Below, one piece after another: positions 8,764 through 64,000 of a DNA stretch of 64,000 nucleotides. Source of the DNA: Thermococcus paralvinellae (lineage in GTDB: Archaea > Methanobacteriota_B > Thermococci > Thermococcales > Thermococcaceae); assembly GCF_000517445.1 (NCBI RefSeq), contig NZ_CP006965.1, forward strand, positions 682,001-746,000, in the 5' to 3' direction. Positions within the stretch are counted from its first letter, which is position 1. Every line of letters starts with the position of its first letter. The notes under the pieces are model-generated. The model did no database searches, was not told the origin of the DNA, and saw only the letters and a program-made list of their open reading frames with translations. The position numbers and the translations under genes are program-made.

Positions 8764-8869
8764 GCTACCACCCCGATATTAGTTCACCATTTGGATTTAT
8801 ATGCTTGATGGTGGTAATATACAACGAAATATTTAAAAGGCTCAATTGTTACTAACTTTAGTGGTTAAT

Positions 8870-9424
8870 ATGGACAATGCGAAAAAGAAGGGAGAGCAGT
8901 ATTTCAAAAAGGGCAAGGTTCTGTGGGTGCTGAAGTATAAAGACAGGCTCTATGGAAAGGTTCTTGGAACTTATCCGTATTACGTTGAGGTTAGCATAAA
9001 AAGTGGAAAAAGCAGATGCACTTGTCCTATTGGGAGAGATTGCAAGCATGTATTTGCTGTGCTGGAGGCTTTTGAGAACGGAGAATATTTTAAGACATCA
9101 AGCCCTTTAGTAGAGCTTTCGTCGCAAGCTGTTGTGGATGAGATTATTTTTGAAAATCCTGATATTGGAAAGCCCATTATCTTAAAGGAGCTAATCTATT
9201 ATGTGAATCACGACGAAAGCGGGAGTGAAGTCGCAAGGCTATTCAGGAAAGCTTTTGCTCTGCTAAAGATGGAGTTTTCAGAGGAATTTTATGAATCCTT
9301 GCTCATACAGTTTGGAGAATTTAAGAAAGTTTTTTATGATTATGAGCTCACCGAGGAGCTTGAGAGAGAGCTTGAAGAACTGAAAAAATTTACGTCAAAT
9401 AATCTAGCAAGCTCTTCGCCTTAA
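8870..9424 (+). CDS. SWIM zinc-finger protein
   Basis: The 184-residue protein contains a SWIM zinc-binding motif CxC-x5-CxH (CTCPIGRDCKH, about residues 47-57) after a short beta-rich N-terminus (VLWVLKYKDRLYGKVLG). The C-terminal part is helical and acidic. SWIM domains bind DNA or proteins and in archaea occur in small stand-alone proteins of unknown role. A TATA-like ATTTAAAA at 8831-8838 predicts a nearly leaderless transcript. GTGGTTA precedes ATG 8870; an in-frame GTG at 8861 is an alternative start. The 3' end overlaps the convergent gene by 35 bp. Confidence 0.75.
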   Translation: MDNAKKKGEQYFKKGKVLWVLKYKDRLYGKVLGTYPYYVEVSIKSGKSRCTCPIGRDCKHVFAVLEAFENGEYFKTSSPLVELSSQAVVDEIIFENPDIGKPIILKELIYYVNHDESGSEVARLFRKAFALLKMEFSEEFYESLLIQFGEFKKVFYDYELTEELERELEELKKFTSNNLASSSP

Positions 9425-18649: not shown

Positions 18650-18825
18650 AAGAGATATTCAACAAAGAGGGAGTTTTTATTGAGTACAAAGAGAAGGTAG
18701 TCGAACTTGAGAACGGTGATAAGTTGGTTCATACACAGGAAAATCCAACAAAACTTTGGTGGGAGCTGAAAGAAGCGCTTAAGGGCAAGAGAGTCAGAGT
18801 TGTAGTATATGAAATCGAGGAATGA
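18646..18825 (+). CDS. Conserved-looking 59-aa protein
   Basis: I found this short frame by eye: ATG 18646 overlaps the HAD stop in ATGA, and its own TGA at 18823-18825 overlaps a following ATG. The product is 59 residues, MKEIFNKEGVFIEYKEK at the start and GKRVRVVVYEIEE at the end, with alternating hydrophobic and charged residues suggesting a small beta/alpha fold. The translational coupling on both sides argues that it is real. I recognise no family. Confidence 0.65.
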   Translation: MKEIFNKEGVFIEYKEKVVELENGDKLVHTQENPTKLWWELKEALKGKRVRVVVYEIEE

Positions 18826-18827
18826 AA

Positions 18828-19634
18828 ATGATAGCTCATATAATAAACACTGATATTTATGGCAGAGGAATTCTGAAAGTCTATTTGGAATATCGTCTTC
18901 AGAATTTTAATTTTTTAAAAAATGCTGCAAAACTACTTCTAGATAATTCAGAGAAAGTCCTAATTGTCTCGAGCTTTCCAATCCCCCCAATGAATATTTG
19001 TGAAACTGACGGACCTCTGGGAGCTTTGGCACTTTACAAAGCTGTTGAGAGAATTGGGGGCAAAGCCGAAATCTGGGCACATGAGCAAGTAAAGAAAGCT
19101 CTGAAGCCTTTTAAAGTGACATTGGTAGAGAACCCGGCAATTGAAGATTATTCTATTCTTGTAAGTGTAGAGACAGCCGGAAGAAGTAAAGACGGGGATT
19201 ATTACTCAATGAGTGGGCTTAGGATGTTGACTCCTCCATTCGATGAACTCTTTCTGAAAGCAAAAAATATTGGTGTTCCTACCATCGGGATTGGAGATGG
19301 CGGCAACGAAATAGGTATGGGAAAGATTAGGCATCTCATTGAAAAACACATTCCTCTTGGAGAAAAGATTGCAACCATAGTTGAGACCGATGAGCTCATA
19401 GTTTCTGCAGTCTCTAATTGGGGAGCTTACGGATTGGTTGCTCAGGTTTCACTTGAAATTGGAGAGAATCTTCTTAAGGATTGGGATGAACGAAAGAACT
19501 TGGAAGTCATAGTTTCTGCTGGATTAATTGATGGCATAGTTAAGAAACCTGTTATGAGTGTTGATGGATTAAGTGTCGAAATTCATGAAAAAATCGTTGA
19601 GCTTTTAAAGGAAACGGTGAATTATCAGCTTTAG
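18828..19634 (+). CDS. DUF4392 / glutamate cyclase-like protein
   Basis: The 268-residue protein shows the DUF4392 layout: VLIVSSFPIPPMNICETDGP (about 46-65), then LGALALYKAVERIGG, SVETAGRSKDGDYYSMSG (about 126-143) and the glycine-rich PTIGIGDGGNEIGMGKI (about 163-179). DUF4392 is the catalytic domain of D-glutamate cyclase in animals; the archaeal substrate is unproven. GAGGAATGAAA favours ATG 18828 over the overlapping ATG at 18822. It continues the hps-phi operon. Confidence 0.8.
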   Translation: MIAHIINTDIYGRGILKVYLEYRLQNFNFLKNAAKLLLDNSEKVLIVSSFPIPPMNICETDGPLGALALYKAVERIGGKAEIWAHEQVKKALKPFKVTLVENPAIEDYSILVSVETAGRSKDGDYYSMSGLRMLTPPFDELFLKAKNIGVPTIGIGDGGNEIGMGKIRHLIEKHIPLGEKIATIVETDELIVSAVSNWGAYGLVAQVSLEIGENLLKDWDERKNLEVIVSAGLIDGIVKKPVMSVDGLSVEIHEKIVELLKETVNYQL

Positions 19635-57222: not shown

Positions 57223-57299
57223 GGGCCCGTGGTCTAGTTGGTCATGACGCCGCCCTTACGAGGCGGAGGTCCGGGGTTCGAATCCCCGCGGGCCCACCA
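57223..57299 (+). tRNA. tRNA-Val(UAC), integration target
   Basis: Acceptor GGGCCCG/CGGGCCC, anticodon stem CCGCC/GGCGG with loop CTTACGA (anticodon TAC), T arm CGGGG-TTCGAAT-CCCCG, discriminator A and encoded CCA. The gene is intact. The integrase-like frame on the minus strand runs through its 3' half, as in SSV-type integrations that regenerate the tRNA. Confidence 0.96.
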
Positions 57300-57422
57300 G
57301 AAAACGAGCAATCTTCTAATCACATCCTCATACGTTTCACCCATCCTACCAATCTTTCTAAGCTCTTCCTTCAACTCCACACTCACCCAGATTGTCGTTT
57401 TCCGCCCACTTTCAACACCCAT
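57234..57422 (-). pseudogene. N-terminal fragment of an SSV-type integrase, Int(N)
   Basis: The 62-codon frame starts at ATG 57422 after GGAGGCGCTGGCA. It begins with an RHH/helical segment (KTTIWVSVELKEELRKIG) and then reads into the tRNA antisense (FWWARGDSNPGPPPRKGG) up to a stop inside the tRNA at 57234. In SSV1 integrase the att core is likewise translated antisense to a tRNA (the segment near residue 65 reads PPGFEPGTSG). A split int with Int(N) abutting the target tRNA is the hallmark of integrated SSV-type elements. A stand-alone small protein is the alternative. Int(C) should lie beyond the right edge. Confidence 0.6.
57255..57299. other. Putative att site (tRNA-Val 3' half)
   Basis: SSV-type integrases recombine between the tRNA anticodon-to-3' end region and an identical segment in their own gene. 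The Int(N) frame crosses this stretch, so attL is placed here. The exact core cannot be fixed without attR, which is outside the window. Confidence 0.45.
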
Positions 57423-57543
57423 TGCCAGCGCCTCCAACTATAGAGCCTATAACCCCTATGGCAACAATACCATCAGCAATAGTAAGTGATATAAATCTAG
57501 ATATAAAACACTTTTGCCAAACTGGAAGAAAAGAAGGAGAGGA

Positions 57544-57891
57544 CTATGATGCATTCTCAAGAAGCGCTGCAACAATGAGGAGGAGAGCTCCAGGCAATGA
57601 GGCTACTGTAATTACTAATCCCGCAAGAAGTCCCAAGAGGAAAGCTACAAGTCCTAACTCTCCTCTCTCATTATATGCTTCAACTGCTGTAATGACAGGT
57701 TCGGCTTTGTTCAAGATTTCATAGATAAACAGTACAAGCAGACCTATCAGTATAATTCCTGAACCGACCATTACGTAAAAGCTTGTCAGTATCTCTTTGA
57801 AAGCTTCTATCACTGCACCTATGGGGTCTATTCCAGTAGCTAACAAAAGTCCTATAATAAACCCAGCACCAGCATACTTCCCCTTACTCAT
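57544..57891 (-). CDS. Small three-TM membrane protein of the element
   Basis: The 115-residue protein has three TM segments (YAGAGFIIGLLLATGIDPIG, FYVMVGSGIILIGLLVLFIY and LVAFLLGLLAGLVITVASLP), with a short polar loop NKAEPVITAVEAYNERGE before the third. ATG 57891 is preceded by GTAGGTGTTGCCT. Small membrane proteins of this kind are common in archaeal plasmids and viruses. Function unknown. Confidence 0.65.
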   Translation of the reverse strand: MSKGKYAGAGFIIGLLLATGIDPIGAVIEAFKEILTSFYVMVGSGIILIGLLVLFIYEILNKAEPVITAVEAYNERGELGLVAFLLGLLAGLVITVASLPGALLLIVAALLENAS

Positions 57892-58000
57892 AGGCAACAC
57901 CTACACAATTGTATAAAACAAGTTGTCACTTTCTTTCTTCTCACTTGAAGTTTAAATCTTTTTCTGCTTGCAAAAACAAACTTGCTAACTGGTGGGGGTA

Positions 58001-58040
58001 CCGAGCCTCCAGCCACAAGAGAGAAGAAGCGGAGGACCGG
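58001..58040. repeat. Possible GC-rich hairpin between ATPase and membrane gene
   Basis: CCG-AG-CCTCC (58001-58010) can pair with GGAGG-AC-CGG (58031-58040) around a 20-nt purine-rich loop. It lies in the 200-bp gap downstream of the ATPase gene. It may act as a terminator or processing stem, or be incidental. Confidence 0.3.
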
Positions 58041-58102
58041 AAACAACCATGGACATAATAATTATTAGTACACCCTCTCTCTGGTATCCCTTACCCCTTA
58101 CA

Positions 58103-59032
58103 CTACTTCCTGTCCACCAAAACGTCATAATCTACAGGAGGCAAGGGCTTGAATCTAAATCCACCAAATCGCCCCCACTCGATAACCGCATATCCGTCTC
58201 GGAGTGCGAGTACTACTTGCTTCCTCACTATACTGCCTTGTTCGACCTCAGCTCCTCTCAAGTATATTCTTGTTGGGATTTTCGTCCTGATTCTCCAATC
58301 GACATTCTTGAGTGTGTGAGTTGACATGATGAGCGAAACCCAACCCTTCCTCAGGTCTTTGATGATGTCTTTGACCCAATCTTGGAGAATAAACTGAGCA
58401 CCTCTCGGTGTCTCTGGAAAGATGTCATCCACTTCGTCAATAAACACGCTGTACCATCTCCTATCCTTCCTGGTGAGGAGGCGGTAGAGGAGTTCAAACC
58501 AAAAGTAAGCGGGTTTCTCCTCCTCTAACTTGTCAGGTGGAATGATTTTTCCGGTCCTGTCCTTCACATCTTGTACCAGTTCTTCAGAAATTCTGTAGCT
58601 CACAGGTTCATAGATGACATTCAGCTTGTCTTTCCTTGCCAAACGGAGGATGTCCTCAGCACTTTCATAGGTAACGAGGTCCGGGATTTCAAGCTTTGTT
58701 GCTGGTGAGCCATCGTACGGGAGTTTCAAGAATTCTATGTTGTCATCCTTGTGAACCAGTATTCTTACTTTCTCCTCCCAACTTGGGAAGCGATGCCATT
58801 GTGCTAGGAATCTGCCTCTCCAGAAACAGATGTCAGGCATCTGGGAGATTAGAAACTTGGCAAAAAGTAGCTTCAAGGTGGTTTTCCCACTGCCTTGTTC
58901 TCCGGTGATTATCCCGACATTTCCTCCTCTTTCGGGTCTTCTGGACAAGAATTTGTTGAGAAGTTCAGCGCCCACTTCTGCGAAGATTTGGTCACCGGAT
59001 TTGAGGCTTAATCCTTTCTTCTCCAGCACCAT
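58103..59032 (-). CDS. P-loop ATPase of the element
   Basis: The 309-residue ATPase has Walker A GEQGSGKTT (44-52) and a Walker B-like strand SVFIDEVDDIF with DE (about residue 200), followed by an LILQDW region and a sensor-like SLIMSTHTLKNVDWRIRTKIP. The domain layout resembles KAP/AAA+ or FtsK-HerA-like ATPases of archaeal plasmids and viruses; I cannot decide between DNA partition, packaging or replication. GGGTGGTT sets ATG 59032. A TATA-like TTTAACTATC lies near 59062. Confidence 0.75.
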   Translation of the reverse strand: MVLEKKGLSLKSGDQIFAEVGAELLNKFLSRRPERGGNVGIITGEQGSGKTTLKLLFAKFLISQMPDICFWRGRFLAQWHRFPSWEEKVRILVHKDDNIEFLKLPYDGSPATKLEIPDLVTYESAEDILRLARKDKLNVIYEPVSYRISEELVQDVKDRTGKIIPPDKLEEEKPAYFWFELLYRLLTRKDRRWYSVFIDEVDDIFPETPRGAQFILQDWVKDIIKDLRKGWVSLIMSTHTLKNVDWRIRTKIPTRIYLRGAEVEQGSIVRKQVVLALRDGYAVIEWGRFGGFRFKPLPPVDYDVLVDRK

Positions 59033-59217
59033 AACCACCCTCCCTCTCCCTGTGTAGATAGTTAAATGGACTTCTGATACAACCTTTTTGGACGGGGAGA
59101 GAGGGTAGATTACGGCAGAGCGAAAACAGGAGAAGATGCGGGAAAACTGAAGAAAGAAAGCATCAGCTAGGACAAGCCATAAGGAGATATGGGAACATAG
59201 AGATATAGCTCATTTCT

Positions 59218-59958
59218 CTACCTGCATTTGTCCTGATGCTTCTTACAGTAGTAGATTATCAGGTTGTCAATGACTTTGGGGATTGTTTGGTTCCATCCTC
59301 CAATTTTCTCGTCAATTCTCACTAACTCCTCCATTTTCTGCCGGCACTCCTCATTCCTAACGAATTCTGAAAGTACTCTGTGTACTTTTATGAACCTCTC
59401 TACTTCATTCTTAGGTGTAACTCCAAAGTGGAAATGAACCATAGTGTGTGTCCAATCAACAGGCATGATAAGGTTTGGGAGAAGGAAGTGCAGAAGTTTA
59501 GAACGCCCCACAATCTTTGTTTTAGTTCTTATAGGGTCAAGAGGCTCAAGACACCTATAAAGTTTCGTCACAGTTGTTTCAACATCCATAAACTCCTCTA
59601 CTGAATGACCTGCTAACTCTTCAAGGCTCTTGAGAACTTTGGGTGTTCTTAAGTTGGCACTGAACTCCTCAAATGGCTTAAGCTTAGGACCTTTGTTTTG
59701 AAAGCGGAAGTTGTGCATTCCCCATGATACTAGACTAGCATAGAGAATGTTTAGAAATCCTCTATCCTCAAGAAGTTTGACAATCCTTTGTGGTGAGGCA
59801 CATTTGGTTTGCTCAACAACCTCGAGATAGAAGTGAAGGTCTGGCCCCTTACCTAGAATTGAGTTAATTTTCTTTCCAAGGACTATTACCTCTTCTTCTA
59901 GGAATTTCTCAAGTTTTTTCAAACCTTCCCATACTCTACTCTCAAATCCCTCTACCAT
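59218..59958 (-). CDS. Unknown helical protein of the element (246 aa)
   Basis: The 246-residue protein is predicted helical, with SKLLHFLLPNLIMPVDWTHT (about 155-174) and a C-terminal basic segment ending in YYCKKHQDKCR. The S-K-x-L-H-F-L-x-P-x-L-x-P-x-D pattern recurs in hypothetical proteins of bacteria and archaea whose function I cannot name. It lies between the origin-like region and the ATPase. No confident function. Confidence 0.5.
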   Translation of the reverse strand: MVEGFESRVWEGLKKLEKFLEEEVIVLGKKINSILGKGPDLHFYLEVVEQTKCASPQRIVKLLEDRGFLNILYASLVSWGMHNFRFQNKGPKLKPFEEFSANLRTPKVLKSLEELAGHSVEEFMDVETTVTKLYRCLEPLDPIRTKTKIVGRSKLLHFLLPNLIMPVDWTHTMVHFHFGVTPKNEVERFIKVHRVLSEFVRNEECRQKMEELVRIDEKIGGWNQTIPKVIDNLIIYYCKKHQDKCR

Positions 59959-60034
59959 TCAGTTCGCCATGAGCATACTACAACCTTCATCCTAATACAT
60001 GTTTCGTAGCAACTCCTCCCATCACTCTCAATGT

Positions 60035-60064
60035 TTTCCGCACTCCCCAAGTTATTCGATTAGG
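60035..60064 (-). repeat. Iteron 1 (inverted orientation)
   Basis: On the minus strand this copy has the core CCTAATCGAATAAC (60051-60064 on the plus strand as GTTATTCGATTAGG) followed by TTGGGGAGTGCGGAAA. It is inverted relative to iterons 2 and 3. Confidence 0.65.
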
Positions 60065-60148
60065 TGTACATTTTTATTTTCATCTGAACACACAAATCTC
60101 ACTGCACATGTGTTCTTTGTTTGACCTGATTGTCCATAAAAAACATAA

Positions 60149-60178
60149 CCTAATCGAATAACAGATGAAGTGAGGAAG
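60149..60178 (+). repeat. Iteron 2
   Basis: Core CCTAATCGAATAAC (60149-60162) followed by AGATGAAGTGAGGAAG. The core is identical to iteron 1, and the tail shares the G-x-x-GTGxGGAA pattern with the other copies. Confidence 0.65.
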
Positions 60179-60200
60179 AATTGTGGATAAGAAGTTACAG

Positions 60201-60230
60201 CCAAATCGAATAACGGAAGGCGTGAGGAAA
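60201..60230 (+). repeat. Iteron 3
   Basis: CCAAATCGAATAAC (60201-60214) followed by GGAAGGCGTGAGGAAA. It is a direct repeat of iteron 2 with a centre-to-centre distance of 52 bp (about five helical turns) and one core mismatch. Confidence 0.65.
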
Positions 60231-60270
60231 GTAGAAGAAGTCAGAAAAAAATGGGAGAGTGTAGGGAGGA

Positions 60271-61779
60271 CTAATCTTTCTTGAGAGGCTTGACTGTTAT
60301 CCCGACCCATGCACGGACATAGTTGTTGGTTGATACAGCCTTCATGCTCTCCTGAATGTCTGGAAGGAGTCTTCTTAGTTCTCTGGCGAATGCTTTTTCT
60401 GTCAATTTTGGAAGTTTTCTACTCTCACAGAAGTCAACAAAGATTTCATACAACTCATCTTTTGGAATCCAGCTGTCTTTGTCTCTTACAACAAGCTCTT
60501 CAACAAACATTGCTACTGGATTTGATAGCTTCTCGTAGAGTTTTTCGACTTCTTCTGGTGATTTAGCGTATATGAAACCGTTGTAATGCAAGAGTAAAGC
60601 CAATCCCACAAGCGCCAAGTTGAATATACCTGAAAGCTCTTCGGGAGTCGCTATCTTCTCATCAAGGTTTGGGATTTTTTTCTCTGGAGGAATCCTTTTT
60701 GGGAGTATTACTATCAACAGACGCCTGTAGAAAGCTTCAGTAGCATCGTGAGCTCTTGGAAGAACATTACCTGCGAAGATGAATTTTGCTCTGTTTTCAA
60801 ACTCAAATGAATTCTTGAACTTCTTTTCTGCTGTTATTGTATCTCCGCTAGTGAACATCTTAAGTAGACCTGTTGACTTAAAAGCCTTCCATGGAATATC
60901 GTCAGAAATGTTAACCATCTTTCCGTACAAATCTGCTCTTGCGAATCTGTTTTCAATGAGGTCCTGGGGAGGACGAGCAGAGATGTTCTCCTTCCCTAGG
61001 AAGTGTTTGATTATCTTGATGAGTGTTGACTTTCCATTGTTCCCTGGACCAAAGAGAATGAGCATCTTTTGGTATCTGTTGTCCCCTAGAAGGATATAAC
61101 CCAGGAACTGGGTGATAGTCACATAGTCTTCTCTTGTGCCTAGGACCTCATTGAGGAACTGAACAAATCTTCTAGGGACAGCATCAGGGTTAAACTCGGC
61201 GTTAATCTGTCTGAGGCTCAGGTACTCTGGTGTGTGAGGCAAGAATGTCCAGTTTTCAATGTCGAGAAGTCCGTTTTTGCAGTTCACTATGTATGGATTT
61301 TTGTCGAACTCGTCACGGCTCACGTAGGTGCTTCTCTGAATGTGTCCGATGACTTCATTCACGAAGTACCGAGTAGCTTTGTGTTCAAGTCCAACTTTTT
61401 TCATCATGTTTTGAACTTCTCTTTTGATGATGCGTGTTTCAGCACCAAAGTGATACTTGCCTTGATAGTAGAATAAGACTTCTTCTGTGTCATCAAGTGT
61501 TGCAAACCTGTAGTACTTCATAAGAACATCTGCAACATGTGAAGGTTTGATGTCATCTGGATGCTGTGGGTCAATCTTTTGTTGGAGGAGCTCATGCGGT
61601 TCAGGCAACTTGGCACCCAGCGGTCTTCCCCATTCGTCATACTTTGGAATGCCGCCAACTTTTATCCTCTCTTGAATGAAGTTTCTGATATCTTGAAGGA
61701 TTTTCTCAAGCTCTTCAGGAGTCCATAAAGTACTTATACTGCCTCCAGCATAATCACTATTAGGGGTTACAGCTTCCAT
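60271..61779 (-). CDS. D5/SF3-type replication helicase
   Basis: The 502-residue protein has a D5_N-type region (about 85-220) and an SF3 ATPase: Walker A FGPGNNGKSTL (about 243-253), Walker B GKMVNISDDIP (about 286-296), motif C AKFIFAGNVLP (about 331-341) and the arginine-finger FYRRLLIV (about 350-357). The C-terminal region is a winged-helix-like segment (about 430-490). No AEP primase domain precedes it. It is the probable initiator/helicase of the element, next to the iterons. GGTGATAGAGG precedes ATG 61779. It lies 23 nt after the HTH gene in the same operon. Confidence 0.9.
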   Translation of the reverse strand: MEAVTPNSDYAGGSISTLWTPEELEKILQDIRNFIQERIKVGGIPKYDEWGRPLGAKLPEPHELLQQKIDPQHPDDIKPSHVADVLMKYYRFATLDDTEEVLFYYQGKYHFGAETRIIKREVQNMMKKVGLEHKATRYFVNEVIGHIQRSTYVSRDEFDKNPYIVNCKNGLLDIENWTFLPHTPEYLSLRQINAEFNPDAVPRRFVQFLNEVLGTREDYVTITQFLGYILLGDNRYQKMLILFGPGNNGKSTLIKIIKHFLGKENISARPPQDLIENRFARADLYGKMVNISDDIPWKAFKSTGLLKMFTSGDTITAEKKFKNSFEFENRAKFIFAGNVLPRAHDATEAFYRRLLIVILPKRIPPEKKIPNLDEKIATPEELSGIFNLALVGLALLLHYNGFIYAKSPEEVEKLYEKLSNPVAMFVEELVVRDKDSWIPKDELYEIFVDFCESRKLPKLTEKAFARELRRLLPDIQESMKAVSTNNYVRAWVGITVKPLKKD

Positions 61780-61802
61780 CCTCTATCACCTCTCTTTAGT
61801 TT

Positions 61803-62153
61803 TTAATCTGTTTTGTTTTGACTCAACAGCTTCTCGACCTCACTTTTTGGGATTAGATAGTACCCACTTAGTGTTTTGACAGCATGTAGTTTTCCAGTGT
61901 GAATCCAGTACACTACAGTATCGCTGGCGACATTCAGCATTGCAGCAAGCTGAGAAGGACGTAGATAGTCTTTATTTGGGTCAATACCATATTCATGCAG
62001 TAGTCGTTGAACCTCTTCTTCTGGAATTCTGTACCAGCCTCCTGCATACCTGTATGCCTTAATCTGGCCCTTTTCGATAGCTTTCTTGATGGTACTGTAC
62101 TCTACTCTTAGCAACTTTGCTAGTTGGGTTGCCGTATGGTATGTTCTTCCCAT
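61803..62153 (-). CDS. Tandem HTH_17/excisionase-like DNA-binding protein
   Basis: The 116-residue protein has two MerR/excisionase-type HTH units: TATQLAKLLRVEYSTIKKAI with GGWYRIPEEEVQRLL (about 6-50), and RPSQLAAMLNVASDTVVYWI with GYYLIPKSEVEKLL (about 66-110). It could be a regulator of the replication operon or an excisionase. ATG 62153 is set by GAGGTGAGGAAA. A TATA box at 62204-62212 lies upstream. It shares an operon with the helicase. Confidence 0.8.
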   Translation of the reverse strand: MGRTYHTATQLAKLLRVEYSTIKKAIEKGQIKAYRYAGGWYRIPEEEVQRLLHEYGIDPNKDYLRPSQLAAMLNVASDTVVYWIHTGKLHAVKTLSGYYLIPKSEVEKLLSQNKTD

Positions 62154-62203
62154 TTTTTCCTCACCTCTCAATCCTTCTCTTGTTCAAATGTATTCTCCAA
62201 GAA

Positions 62204-62212
62204 CTATAAATA
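62204..62212 (-). promoter_or_regulatory. TATA box of the HTH-helicase operon
   Basis: On the minus strand TATTTATAG within AAAAAGTATTTATAGTTC lies about 50-59 nt upstream of ATG 62153. Confidence 0.5.
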
Positions 62213-62240
62213 CTTTTTGGAGGTTTTTCATGCCTCTTTT

Positions 62241-62275
62241 CTTAACTTACACGGCTCTAAGAGGAGTAAGTTAAG
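62241..62275. promoter_or_regulatory. Inverted repeat CTTAACTTAC/GTAAGTTAAG, operator candidate
   Basis: Two perfect 10-bp arms (62241-62250 and 62266-62275), 15 nt apart, lie directly upstream of the TATA box of the HTH-helicase operon. A smaller palindrome AGTGT-AATC-ACACT is at 62289-62302. The position suits an operator for an HTH protein of the element. Confidence 0.45.
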
Positions 62276-62392
62276 ATTTCTACTAGCGAGTGTAATCACA
62301 CTTGGTCTTTAGTGAAAAGCAAAAAACACCCTTGACAGAACACCAAAATCTTTGACCAAGAACAGGTCTGGAAGCTCAAGGACTGGAGCCTG

Positions 62393-62755
62393 TCACTTAA
62401 GTTCTGGAAAGTTTGGCTTGTTGATAAAGACTACATTCTTTCTATCTTTCAAGAGGTCGGTGATGTCAATGTAAAAGTCAGCAGTGCGCTTATAAGGAAA
62501 CGGATGACCATGCCAGTTAACTATGATTCCATTGTAAGACTTAAGTTTGACGAGCAGGTGCCCTCCTTCTGTTTTTGTCTGAGTTGGTTCAAGTATGAGG
62601 AGCATCTGGGCTGTAGGAGGAGACCCTTCTACTGTTAGCAAAACTGTTGACGTCAAGCCATACCAATCGGGCATAAAGGCAACAAACACTCGTCTTTCCC
62701 TTGCCTCTGCACCCATCTTTTCTACCAAATCTTCAAATCTTAGTACTGTTTCCAT
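62393..62755 (-). CDS. Unknown protein of the element (120 aa)
   Basis: The 120-residue protein mixes beta strands (RRVFVAFMPDWYGLTSTVLL) with the segment NWHGHPFPYKRTADFYIDITDLL. Possible metal-binding residues are His in WHGHP. GGTGGTGAGA sets ATG 62755. No family recognised. A TATA-like ACTTAAAAATC near 62790 is upstream. Confidence 0.5.
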   Translation of the reverse strand: METVLRFEDLVEKMGAEARERRVFVAFMPDWYGLTSTVLLTVEGSPPTAQMLLILEPTQTKTEGGHLLVKLKSYNGIIVNWHGHPFPYKRTADFYIDITDLLKDRKNVVFINKPNFPELK

Positions 62756-62893
62756 TCTCACCACCACTTTTAGTACACTTCCAGATTTTTAAGTATAGAG
62801 GTCTGGTCCTCCTGTCTCCTTGTTGTTTTTCAAAAAACCAAAGTAAGGAAGATGCTGTGGGCTTTAGGGAGGAGCAGGTGAATCTGTCGGTTT

Positions 62894-63145
62894 TCATGTT
62901 CTTCTCCCCTTACTGATTTTCTCAAACAGTTCCAAAGCAACTTGTTTTGCCTTCTCAATTTCTTCACCAGCAATCCGAATGCTGATGTGAAGGTCAGGCT
63001 TACTGATTTCTAGTTCCAGTAATGGTGATTGTAGGAGTTCCTCCTCTCTCTCAATTTCAGCATCTTCGCCTTCCTCATCGGTTGGTTCCACAGGGAGTTT
63101 AGGTGTGTCTTCAATCATGAGCTTGGGCTTCAGGTGTGGAGGCAC
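62894..63145 (-). CDS. Small acidic protein of the element (83 aa)
   Basis: The 83-residue protein has an acidic N-terminal half (PTDEEGEDAEIEREEELL) and a C-terminal helix (EEIEKAKQVALELFEKISKG). The GTG start 63145 follows GGAGGGATAAACA and overlaps the upstream HTH gene by 35 nt. Function unknown. Confidence 0.55.
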   Translation of the reverse strand: MPPHLKPKLMIEDTPKLPVEPTDEEGEDAEIEREEELLQSPLLELEISKPDLHISIRIAGEEIEKAKQVALELFEKISKGRRT

Positions 63146-63518
63146 TGTTTATCCCTCCGTTGTTTTTCAGCTTCAGGACTTCGCTTTCAGGTATCTTGTA
63201 GTAGAGGCCTACCTTGATGCCTCTGAGTTTGCCCTGTCGCACTAACTCACTTACAACTTCTTGCCTAACTCCAAGAATTTCAGCAGCTTGTCTGGTACTG
63301 AGGAGTTTATCTTTTGGAGGTTTCTCCTTCTTGAGCCTTTCAACTTCTTCTTCAGGAATCCAATGATAGACCCTCATCCCATAGCGGATTTTCAGGGAGG
63401 CGACTTTCCCCTGTTCTATCCACAGATAGATAGCGTCAGTCGAAGTGTCAAGAATCTTGGCTACTTCTCGTGGGGAGAGATATGGTCCTTCAGGCCTTGG
63501 AATCTTTGGTGTTAGCAT
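63111..63518 (-). CDS. Tandem HTH_17/excisionase-like protein 2
   Basis: The 135-residue protein has two HTH units of the excisionase type: SPREVAKILDTSTDAIYLWI (about 15-34) and STRQAAEILGVRQEVVSELV (about 73-92), each followed by a basic strand and IPEEEVERL or IPESEVLKL. ATG 63518 follows GGTGAGGAGG. It overlaps the Sm-like gene stop region and the acidic gene start, so it is in the same operon. Confidence 0.75.
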   Translation of the reverse strand: MLTPKIPRPEGPYLSPREVAKILDTSTDAIYLWIEQGKVASLKIRYGMRVYHWIPEEEVERLKKEKPPKDKLLSTRQAAEILGVRQEVVSELVRQGKLRGIKVGLYYKIPESEVLKLKNNGGINSASTPEAQAHD

Positions 63519-63762
63519 CCTCCTCACCCGGTTGTTCTTCTGCAAGTTTGATAACTCCAATCTTTCCTTTCCAAATGGCCACCAATCCGCAATCTTTGGC
63601 TCTGCCATTGACTACAACCTTAGCGTCTTTGAGGGTGAGGAATTGATTGGTCTCCTGGACAAGAATGCCGACATAGGTGGTTCTGCTGTTCCTTTCGCTT
63701 ACAATCACCTTGCGGTTCCAGAAAGGTTGGAATTCAGCCCAAGTGAGGTTCATGTTGCTCAT
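63490..63762 (-). CDS. Sm-like (LSm) protein 2 of the element
   Basis: The 90-residue protein has an Sm-fold-like strand order: NRKVIVSERNSRTTYVGILV, QFLTLKDAKVVV, then GLVAIWKGKIGVIKL, which resembles the Sm2 motif, and an acidic tail. GGAGGTGAAGTAAC precedes ATG 63762, which overlaps the stop of the other Sm-like gene in ATGA. Assignment by pattern only; it could be another small beta barrel. Confidence 0.5.
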   Translation of the reverse strand: MSNMNLTWAEFQPFWNRKVIVSERNSRTTYVGILVQETNQFLTLKDAKVVVNGRAKDCGLVAIWKGKIGVIKLAEEQPGEEDANTKDSKA

Positions 63763-64000
63763 GTTACTTCACCTCCTTTGGGATACTCAATGACAACAAG
63801 GTTCTGGATGAAGAGTTTTCTCACCACAGCAGCAGGTCTGTTGGTGAATTTTCTGCTTCTGGGAATCTTTATGTGGCAATCTGTTAGGTACAAGAATGCC
63901 CAGTCTTCGTTTTCGACAGTCCCGACAAAGACGCTTCCGTCATCCATTTTGATGCTGACCTTGGCACCAAAGTACTTCTCAAACTGGAGTTTGGGTTTCA
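63759..64000 (-). CDS. Sm-like (LSm) protein 1 of the element (5' end at window edge)
   Basis: I read the frame to the right edge as KPKLQFEKYFGAKVSIKM then DDGSVFVGTVENEDWAFLYL. Together these give the Sm1 pattern (GAKVSIKMDDGSVFVGTV, N-E-D, FLYLTDCHI), with a later RKLFIQNLVVIEYP matching Sm2 (IxxLVVI). The last bases TG at the edge could complete an ATG. Length about 80 residues fits an LSm protein. Plasmid- or virus-encoded Sm-like proteins are unusual. Confidence 0.65.
   Translation of the reverse strand, partial: KPKLQFEKYFGAKVSIKMDDGSVFVGTVENEDWAFLYLTDCHIKIPRSRKFTNRPAAVVRKLFIQNLVVIEYPKGGEVT

Follow-up and report, generated by a model that had tools for sequence, protein, structure and literature searches.

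Bipartite repeats behind a D5/SF3 helicase gene as a putative replication origin in an integrated element of Thermococcus paralvinellae

An 8.75-kb integrative plasmid-like element of Thermococcus paralvinellae carries three copies of a bipartite 29-bp repeat directly behind its SF3 helicase gene, and it is quite probable that these repeats are the initiator-binding sites (iterons) of its replication origin and are bound by that helicase. A preliminary description of this DNA had proposed a Rep-dependent origin here, and the proposal is strengthened by the restriction of the repeats to this type of element, by the conservation of their half-sites and by their exchange together with the Rep gene; the layout behind a distant SF3 gene and precedents from SaPI, SCCmec and pRN1 lend further support. 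The conservation part of the argument is drawn from one sister element. Few plasmid origins have been defined in Thermococcales, and this candidate SF3-dependent origin, about 1.8 kb with its gene, is small enough to try as a vector replicon. Positions are those of the window, the whole stretch of 64,000 nucleotides that was analysed, and the features are collected in Table 1.

The last 47 bp of a tRNA-Val gene (57223-57299) are repeated as attR at genome positions 748004-748050 (L005:12004-12050), beyond the window, and therefore an 8751-bp element is integrated there, running from 57253 past the end of the window to 66003 (genome position 748003). The genes read inward from the left end are those for a membrane protein of 118 aa, the AAA ATPase, the 246-aa protein and the SF3 helicase; further in come two proteins containing paired HTH_17 domains, then several small proteins and an archaeal integrase (PF16795, E 1.5e-40). 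The att site is located inside the integrase gene: the integrase frame stays open through attR and ends outside the element without a start codon (L005:11052-12050), and a ribbon-helix-helix-like integrase start piece is found at attL (57253-57437). The integrase is of the self-splitting (SSV/pT26-2) type described previously (PMC8371274), its gene being split by integration. The closest plasmid relatives of the element are from Thermococcus and Pyrococcus. A sister element of 8606 bp, with a helicase 82% identical, occupies another tRNA-Val gene (CAC) in genome G089. No relatives of the helicase or AAA ATPase were found in a search of viral_contigs, and a scan of genome_contigs likewise found no relatives.

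Table 1. Positions of the repeats, the putative origin and neighbouring features in the window (L010 positions refer to the sister element in G089)
Feature	Position	Strand	Size	Remarks
Element, part within the window	57253..64000			of 8751 bp in all
attL, 3' part of tRNA-Val(TAC)	57253..57299	+	47 bp	repeated as attR 8751 bp on
AAA ATPase, backbone gene	58103..59038	-	311 aa	common to sister elements and plasmids pP12-1, pTN2 and pIRI48
246-aa helical protein	59218..59958	-	246 aa	common to sister elements without these repeats
Gap with putative origin	59959..60270		312 bp
Conserved leader of 246-aa gene	59966..60022	-		also in sister element L051, which is without repeats
Site 1 (inverted)	60036..60064	-		CCTAATCGAATA-ACTTGGGGA-GTGCGGAA; counterpart L010:14823-14851
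A+T-rich spacer between inverted sites, candidate unwinding zone	60065..60148		84 bp	31% GC (element, 43.5%)
Site 2	60149..60177	+		CCTAATCGAATA-ACAGATGAA-GTGAGGAA; counterpart L010:14936-14964
Site 3	60201..60229	+		CCAAATCGAATA-ACGGAAGGC-GTGAGGAA; direct repeat of site 2; counterpart L010:14988-15016
D5-type SF3 helicase, presumed initiator	60271..61779	-	502 aa	DUF5906 8e-24, D5_N 9e-14, Pox_D5 2e-8
Protein with two HTH_17 (excisionase-type) domains, upstream of helicase	61803..62171	-	122 aa

The repeat (CCWAATCGAATA-N9-GTGnGGAA) has a conserved unit of 12 + 9 variable + 8 bp. The preliminary description had noted a core, CCTAATCGAATAAC, twice perfect and once with one mismatch, tails sharing GxxGTGxGGAA, one inverted and two direct copies 52 bp apart, and a 312-bp gap next to a D5/SF3 helicase gene. 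All of this was borne out: the core is exact at 60051-60064 (minus strand) and 60149-60162 (plus strand) and has its mismatch at 60201-60214 (plus strand), the tail pattern fits all three copies, and the spacing, gap length and helicase domains are as described. The adjacency to the helicase gene could be refined, since that gene (stop at 60271) and the 246-aa gene both lie on the minus strand, which places the repeats 3' of the former and 5' of the latter. Repeated short sites in non-coding DNA directly 3' of an SF3 gene are the layout expected of a D5/SF3 iteron origin of the SaPI/SCCmec kind. Sites 1 and 2 form an inverted pair pointing outward over the 84-bp spacer, which points only weakly to an unwinding zone because it is not the lowest-stability stretch of the element.

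When the gap was shuffled 500 times with dinucleotides preserved, three such 14-mers never arose. In the host genome (1,957,742 bp, one contig) the three copies in the gap are the only matches to the motif, so that the scattering through the chromosome which had been named as one outcome that would speak against an origin did not occur. Among 94 genomes of the family, exact bipartite matches were confined to this element (3) and the sister element in G089 (3), and all remaining matches to the pattern had 3 mismatches. The one exact match in L053, from viral_contigs, is a single copy in unrelated GC-rich DNA and was judged to be due to chance.

The helicase match to Pox_D5 is winged-helix-like, covers residues 419-474 and, as a sequence match, would supply the C-terminal DNA-binding domain of a D5/SF3 initiator. 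No primase domain was detected in the helicase, and no adjacent primase gene was found. The AlphaFold model of the protein was poor (pLDDT 43); the nearest solved structure by sequence was 7ola (E 6e-34), which we take to be a SaPI Rep. For the 246-aa protein the structure prediction was moderate and no known family or fold was matched; its family has an invariant WNQTIPK...DNLII end and occurs with either Rep type in sister elements. The leader of its gene, with 6 base changes in 57 positions between this element and that of G089, is better kept than the gene (40-47% protein identity), and in the stretch 59959-60022 an SD-like GGGAGG is accompanied by very short start-stop frames, which may be a sign of translational control. 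Other candidate features of the gap were set aside. A 76-aa ORF at 60080-60310, although conserved in G089, has flat substitution rates over the codon positions (0.175/0.172/0.234) and is not coding-like; the inverted pair 60014-60029/60255-60270 has its left arm within the leader of the 246-aa gene and is probably fortuitous; and a search for structured RNA gave no Rfam match better than chance (best E 0.48, SNORA27).

All three sites are kept in place in the G089 element, and the private CCA variant of site 3 is present in both elements. Between the two, the half-sites differ at 1 of 60 positions (20 positions in each of three copies), compared with 13 of 27 positions in the 9-bp spacers, 180 of 503 third codon positions of the helicase gene (36%) and about 23% of the gap outside the sites. 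The half-sites are therefore constrained as sequence; in Fisher's test, which here compares two elements only and takes positions as independent, p is 7e-10 relative to third codon positions and 6e-5 relative to the remainder of the gap. This pattern points to strong purifying selection on the half-sites.

The same comparison bears on a different reading of the inverted copies, in which they would act as a cruciform or hairpin, as in the stem-loop origin of pRN1, and not as duplex binding sites. A large inverted repeat is present 3' of the rep gene: the DNA at 60030-60183 folds with a z-score of -4.6, its arms of 42 nt with 58 nt between them resemble the 100-nt stem-loop with 58-nt loop of pRN1 (PMC4234260), and comparably placed long inverted repeats occur in the sister elements whose Rep is different. 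However, the third, direct copy is conserved though a hairpin has no need of it, the spacers are unpaired and vary freely, and no compensatory changes were found at sites 1 and 2 between the two elements; in G089 site 2 is altered at core positions 13-14 while site 1 is uncompensated, and two stem pairs are lost. Because conservation tracks the half-sites and not the pairing, and because these pairs were lost without compensation, a pure stem-loop origin is unlikely, while a hairpin could assist the iteron origin.

Sister elements with a different initiator indicate what the repeats are linked to. The AAA gene and further backbone genes of this element are also found in L050, L051 and L052, and the 246-aa gene in two of the three; in each, the SF3 slot is taken by another kind of helicase-like Rep, and the repeats are absent. 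Since elements with the other Rep are without the repeats, the repeats travel with the helicase. The similarity of L051 to the window ends at 60018, short of the repeats, and as the leader is common to L051, it marks the edge of a Rep-linked cassette. The 5' joint of the swap lies within the first codons of rep, where the SF3 and alternative Reps have in common an SxYAG (or SxxYAG) motif and a short stretch of DNA; the YAG motif that both have at the N terminus suggests that recombination occurred where the rep gene begins. The helicase gene and the repeats therefore appear to have been swapped together, in a cassette that reaches from about 61740 to about 60023. That the repeats are confined to the replicon and go with one type of initiator is in keeping with a D5/SF3 iteron origin, and otherwise similar integrated elements appear here to have swapped their rep gene and putative origin as a unit. 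A role of the AAA ATPase in partition is unlikely, because its gene persists in elements where the repeats are absent.

The alternative Rep has about 610 aa and almost no Pfam match (L050:6735-8591, L052:11931-13751, L051:26-1171). Long inverted repeats lie directly 3' of its gene (L050:8581-8790 and 8819-9000, L051:1171-1371, L052:11738-11927), about 140-165 bp apart and differing in sequence; the changes between the L051 and L052 arms partly match on both sides. Hairpin z-scores behind the three genes were -2.6, -1.0 and -7.3.

The gap is also directly upstream of the 246-aa gene, and the repeats might instead be an operator at which an element-encoded regulator, such as the two-HTH_17 protein, controls that gene, the promoter of which has to be in the gap. 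A+T-rich TATA-like stretches adjoin sites 1 and 2, and HTH proteins are encoded close by. Against this, the elements of G047 and G072 retain the 246-aa gene (that of G047 also the leader) without any repeats, and no other promoter of the element has the repeats, whereas a different motif, AGTTAAGA, is found at the two rep-operon promoters. We consider the operator reading improbable because the 246-aa gene occurs without the repeats.

It had also been suggested that cumulative GC skew over the element be used to locate the origin. The minimum falls near 64211, away from the repeats and at a change of gene direction, and is uninformative because the skew follows the gene strand. Together with the minimum at 18766 in G089, it would favour placing the true origin in the large intergenic region 64168-64520 before the rep operon and assigning the repeats near 60 kb to copy-number control, incompatibility or partition; this region holds repeated AGTTAAGA motifs, and pTN2-like plasmids are predicted to have their ori before the rep operon (PMC3543421). 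The skew minimum, however, falls at a gene-strand switch, and the motif recurs at the second rep promoter, in the manner of an operator. In L050 the region is conserved although the Rep is unrelated. The region is therefore part of the backbone and not linked to the initiator, and we give an origin at this position little credence. The second repeat family, AGTTAAGA(AAAG), is paired and inverted upstream of both rep-operon promoters (62240-62276 and 64244-64332) and conserved in G089 (L010:17030-17066 and 18824-18903) and L050 (L050:4678-4685); it looks like a set of operators of a backbone regulator.

A comparable layout to that of the proposed iteron origin was seen behind other SF3 genes. 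In G068 an SF3 gene 42% identical to that of the element, on an unrelated contig, is followed by a tandem array of three 9-bp iterons (RGTCAACAT) and, 83 bp away, by three inverted copies, compared with a distance of 84 bp here; the iteron sequences are unrelated to the repeats of the element. These iterons, at L012:4180-4312 on a 14.7-kb contig, mark a second candidate origin. At 18 SF3 loci besides this element and that of G089, the 500 bp flanking the gene at either end were scanned, with 60 shuffles, for inverted repeats whose arms are separated by 30-260 bp. A 3' inverted repeat matched by none of the shuffles was found at 8 loci and not at the other 10, and a 5' inverted repeat at the same level at 3 of the 18. 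The positives include Streptococcus phage P9, Salinibacter pSR11, satellite Javan591 (inner gap 81 bp), S. thermophilus phage SW11, Lacticaseibacillus R23.1, Staphylococcus phiSP119-3 and Pseudomonas MR14, and the eight inner gaps were 74, 81, 83, 92, 99, 182, 188 and 206 bp. All 8 belong to the 12 loci where free DNA of at least about 190 bp follows the gene, and none to the 6 with the next gene close behind the SF3 gene; the scan is suggestive only, since the loci were hand-picked for diversity, the split by free DNA was made post hoc and non-coding DNA may be richer in repeats. It is conceivable, although we would not call it probable, that a single origin plan is common to D5-type SF3 initiators across archaea, bacterial phages and satellites: inverted sites, whatever their sequence, would lie some 75-100 bp from one another just 3' of the gene, and rep and origin would pass between backbones as a single cassette. 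If the plan were general, origins could be read from the 3' flank of the gene, and the fixed spacing would report the geometry of the double-helicase complex.

Given the SaPI, SCCmec and pRN1 precedents, and a helicase with D5_N, SF3 and C-terminal Pox_D5 domains but no detected primase domain, we propose that the helicase binds and opens the DNA and that host enzymes do the rest. The helicase, encoded just upstream, would bind each 29-bp site via the two half-sites, probably through its C-terminal winged-helix domain. The outward pair over the A+T-rich spacer, helped by the third site, would position two opposed helicase assemblies, which would melt the DNA between or beside them and then load, after which host enzymes would prime and extend. 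The binding, hexamer loading and melting are inferred, as are bidirectional replication and the use of the excised circle.

Among known systems, SaPI origins lie directly downstream of rep, and their iterons are recognised by the C-terminal domain of Rep, apparently by two hexamers; in SCCmec, Cch2 binds a region of three iterons that follows its own gene (PMC7581432). These systems share with the present element a D5-type helicase initiator, an origin directly 3' of its gene, short repeats and a C-terminal DNA-binding domain, and Cch2 also the number of three sites, but the Cch2 iterons are of 5 nt whereas the sites here are bipartite and of 29 bp, and here the host is a hyperthermophilic archaeon and no primase was found in the helicase or encoded beside it. 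The pRN family is archaeal as well, and its initiator (ORF904) combines an SF3 helicase with a C-terminal winged helix; replication of pRN1 requires a region behind the rep gene, which suffices for it when combined with the replication operon, and the minimal origin, 3' of rep, can form a large stem-loop (PMC4234260). For pRN1, however, the description is of a stem-loop that lacks iterons, and the Rep protein has a prim-pol domain; in the present element conservation follows the binding half-sites. In bacteriophage P4 the winged-helix domain of the alpha protein binds origin repeats and unwinding follows (as described in PMC4234260), in likeness to our proposal, but alpha has a bacterial-type primase and its repeats and layout differ. 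The pTN2-like plasmids (pTN2, pP12-1 and pIRI48) have the 311-aa AAA ATPase in common with the element (42-51% identity) but encode an SF1 helicase and a primase-polymerase, and their ori is predicted to precede the operon for these (PMC3543421); among the element proteins scanned there were no UvrD-like or prim-pol matches, and the SF3 helicase fills the rep slot. The arrangement is already known from some bacterial mobile elements and is found here in a new group, to which are added a sharply defined bipartite site, the exchange of a cassette among Thermococcales elements and a near-equal spacing at a distant SF3 gene.
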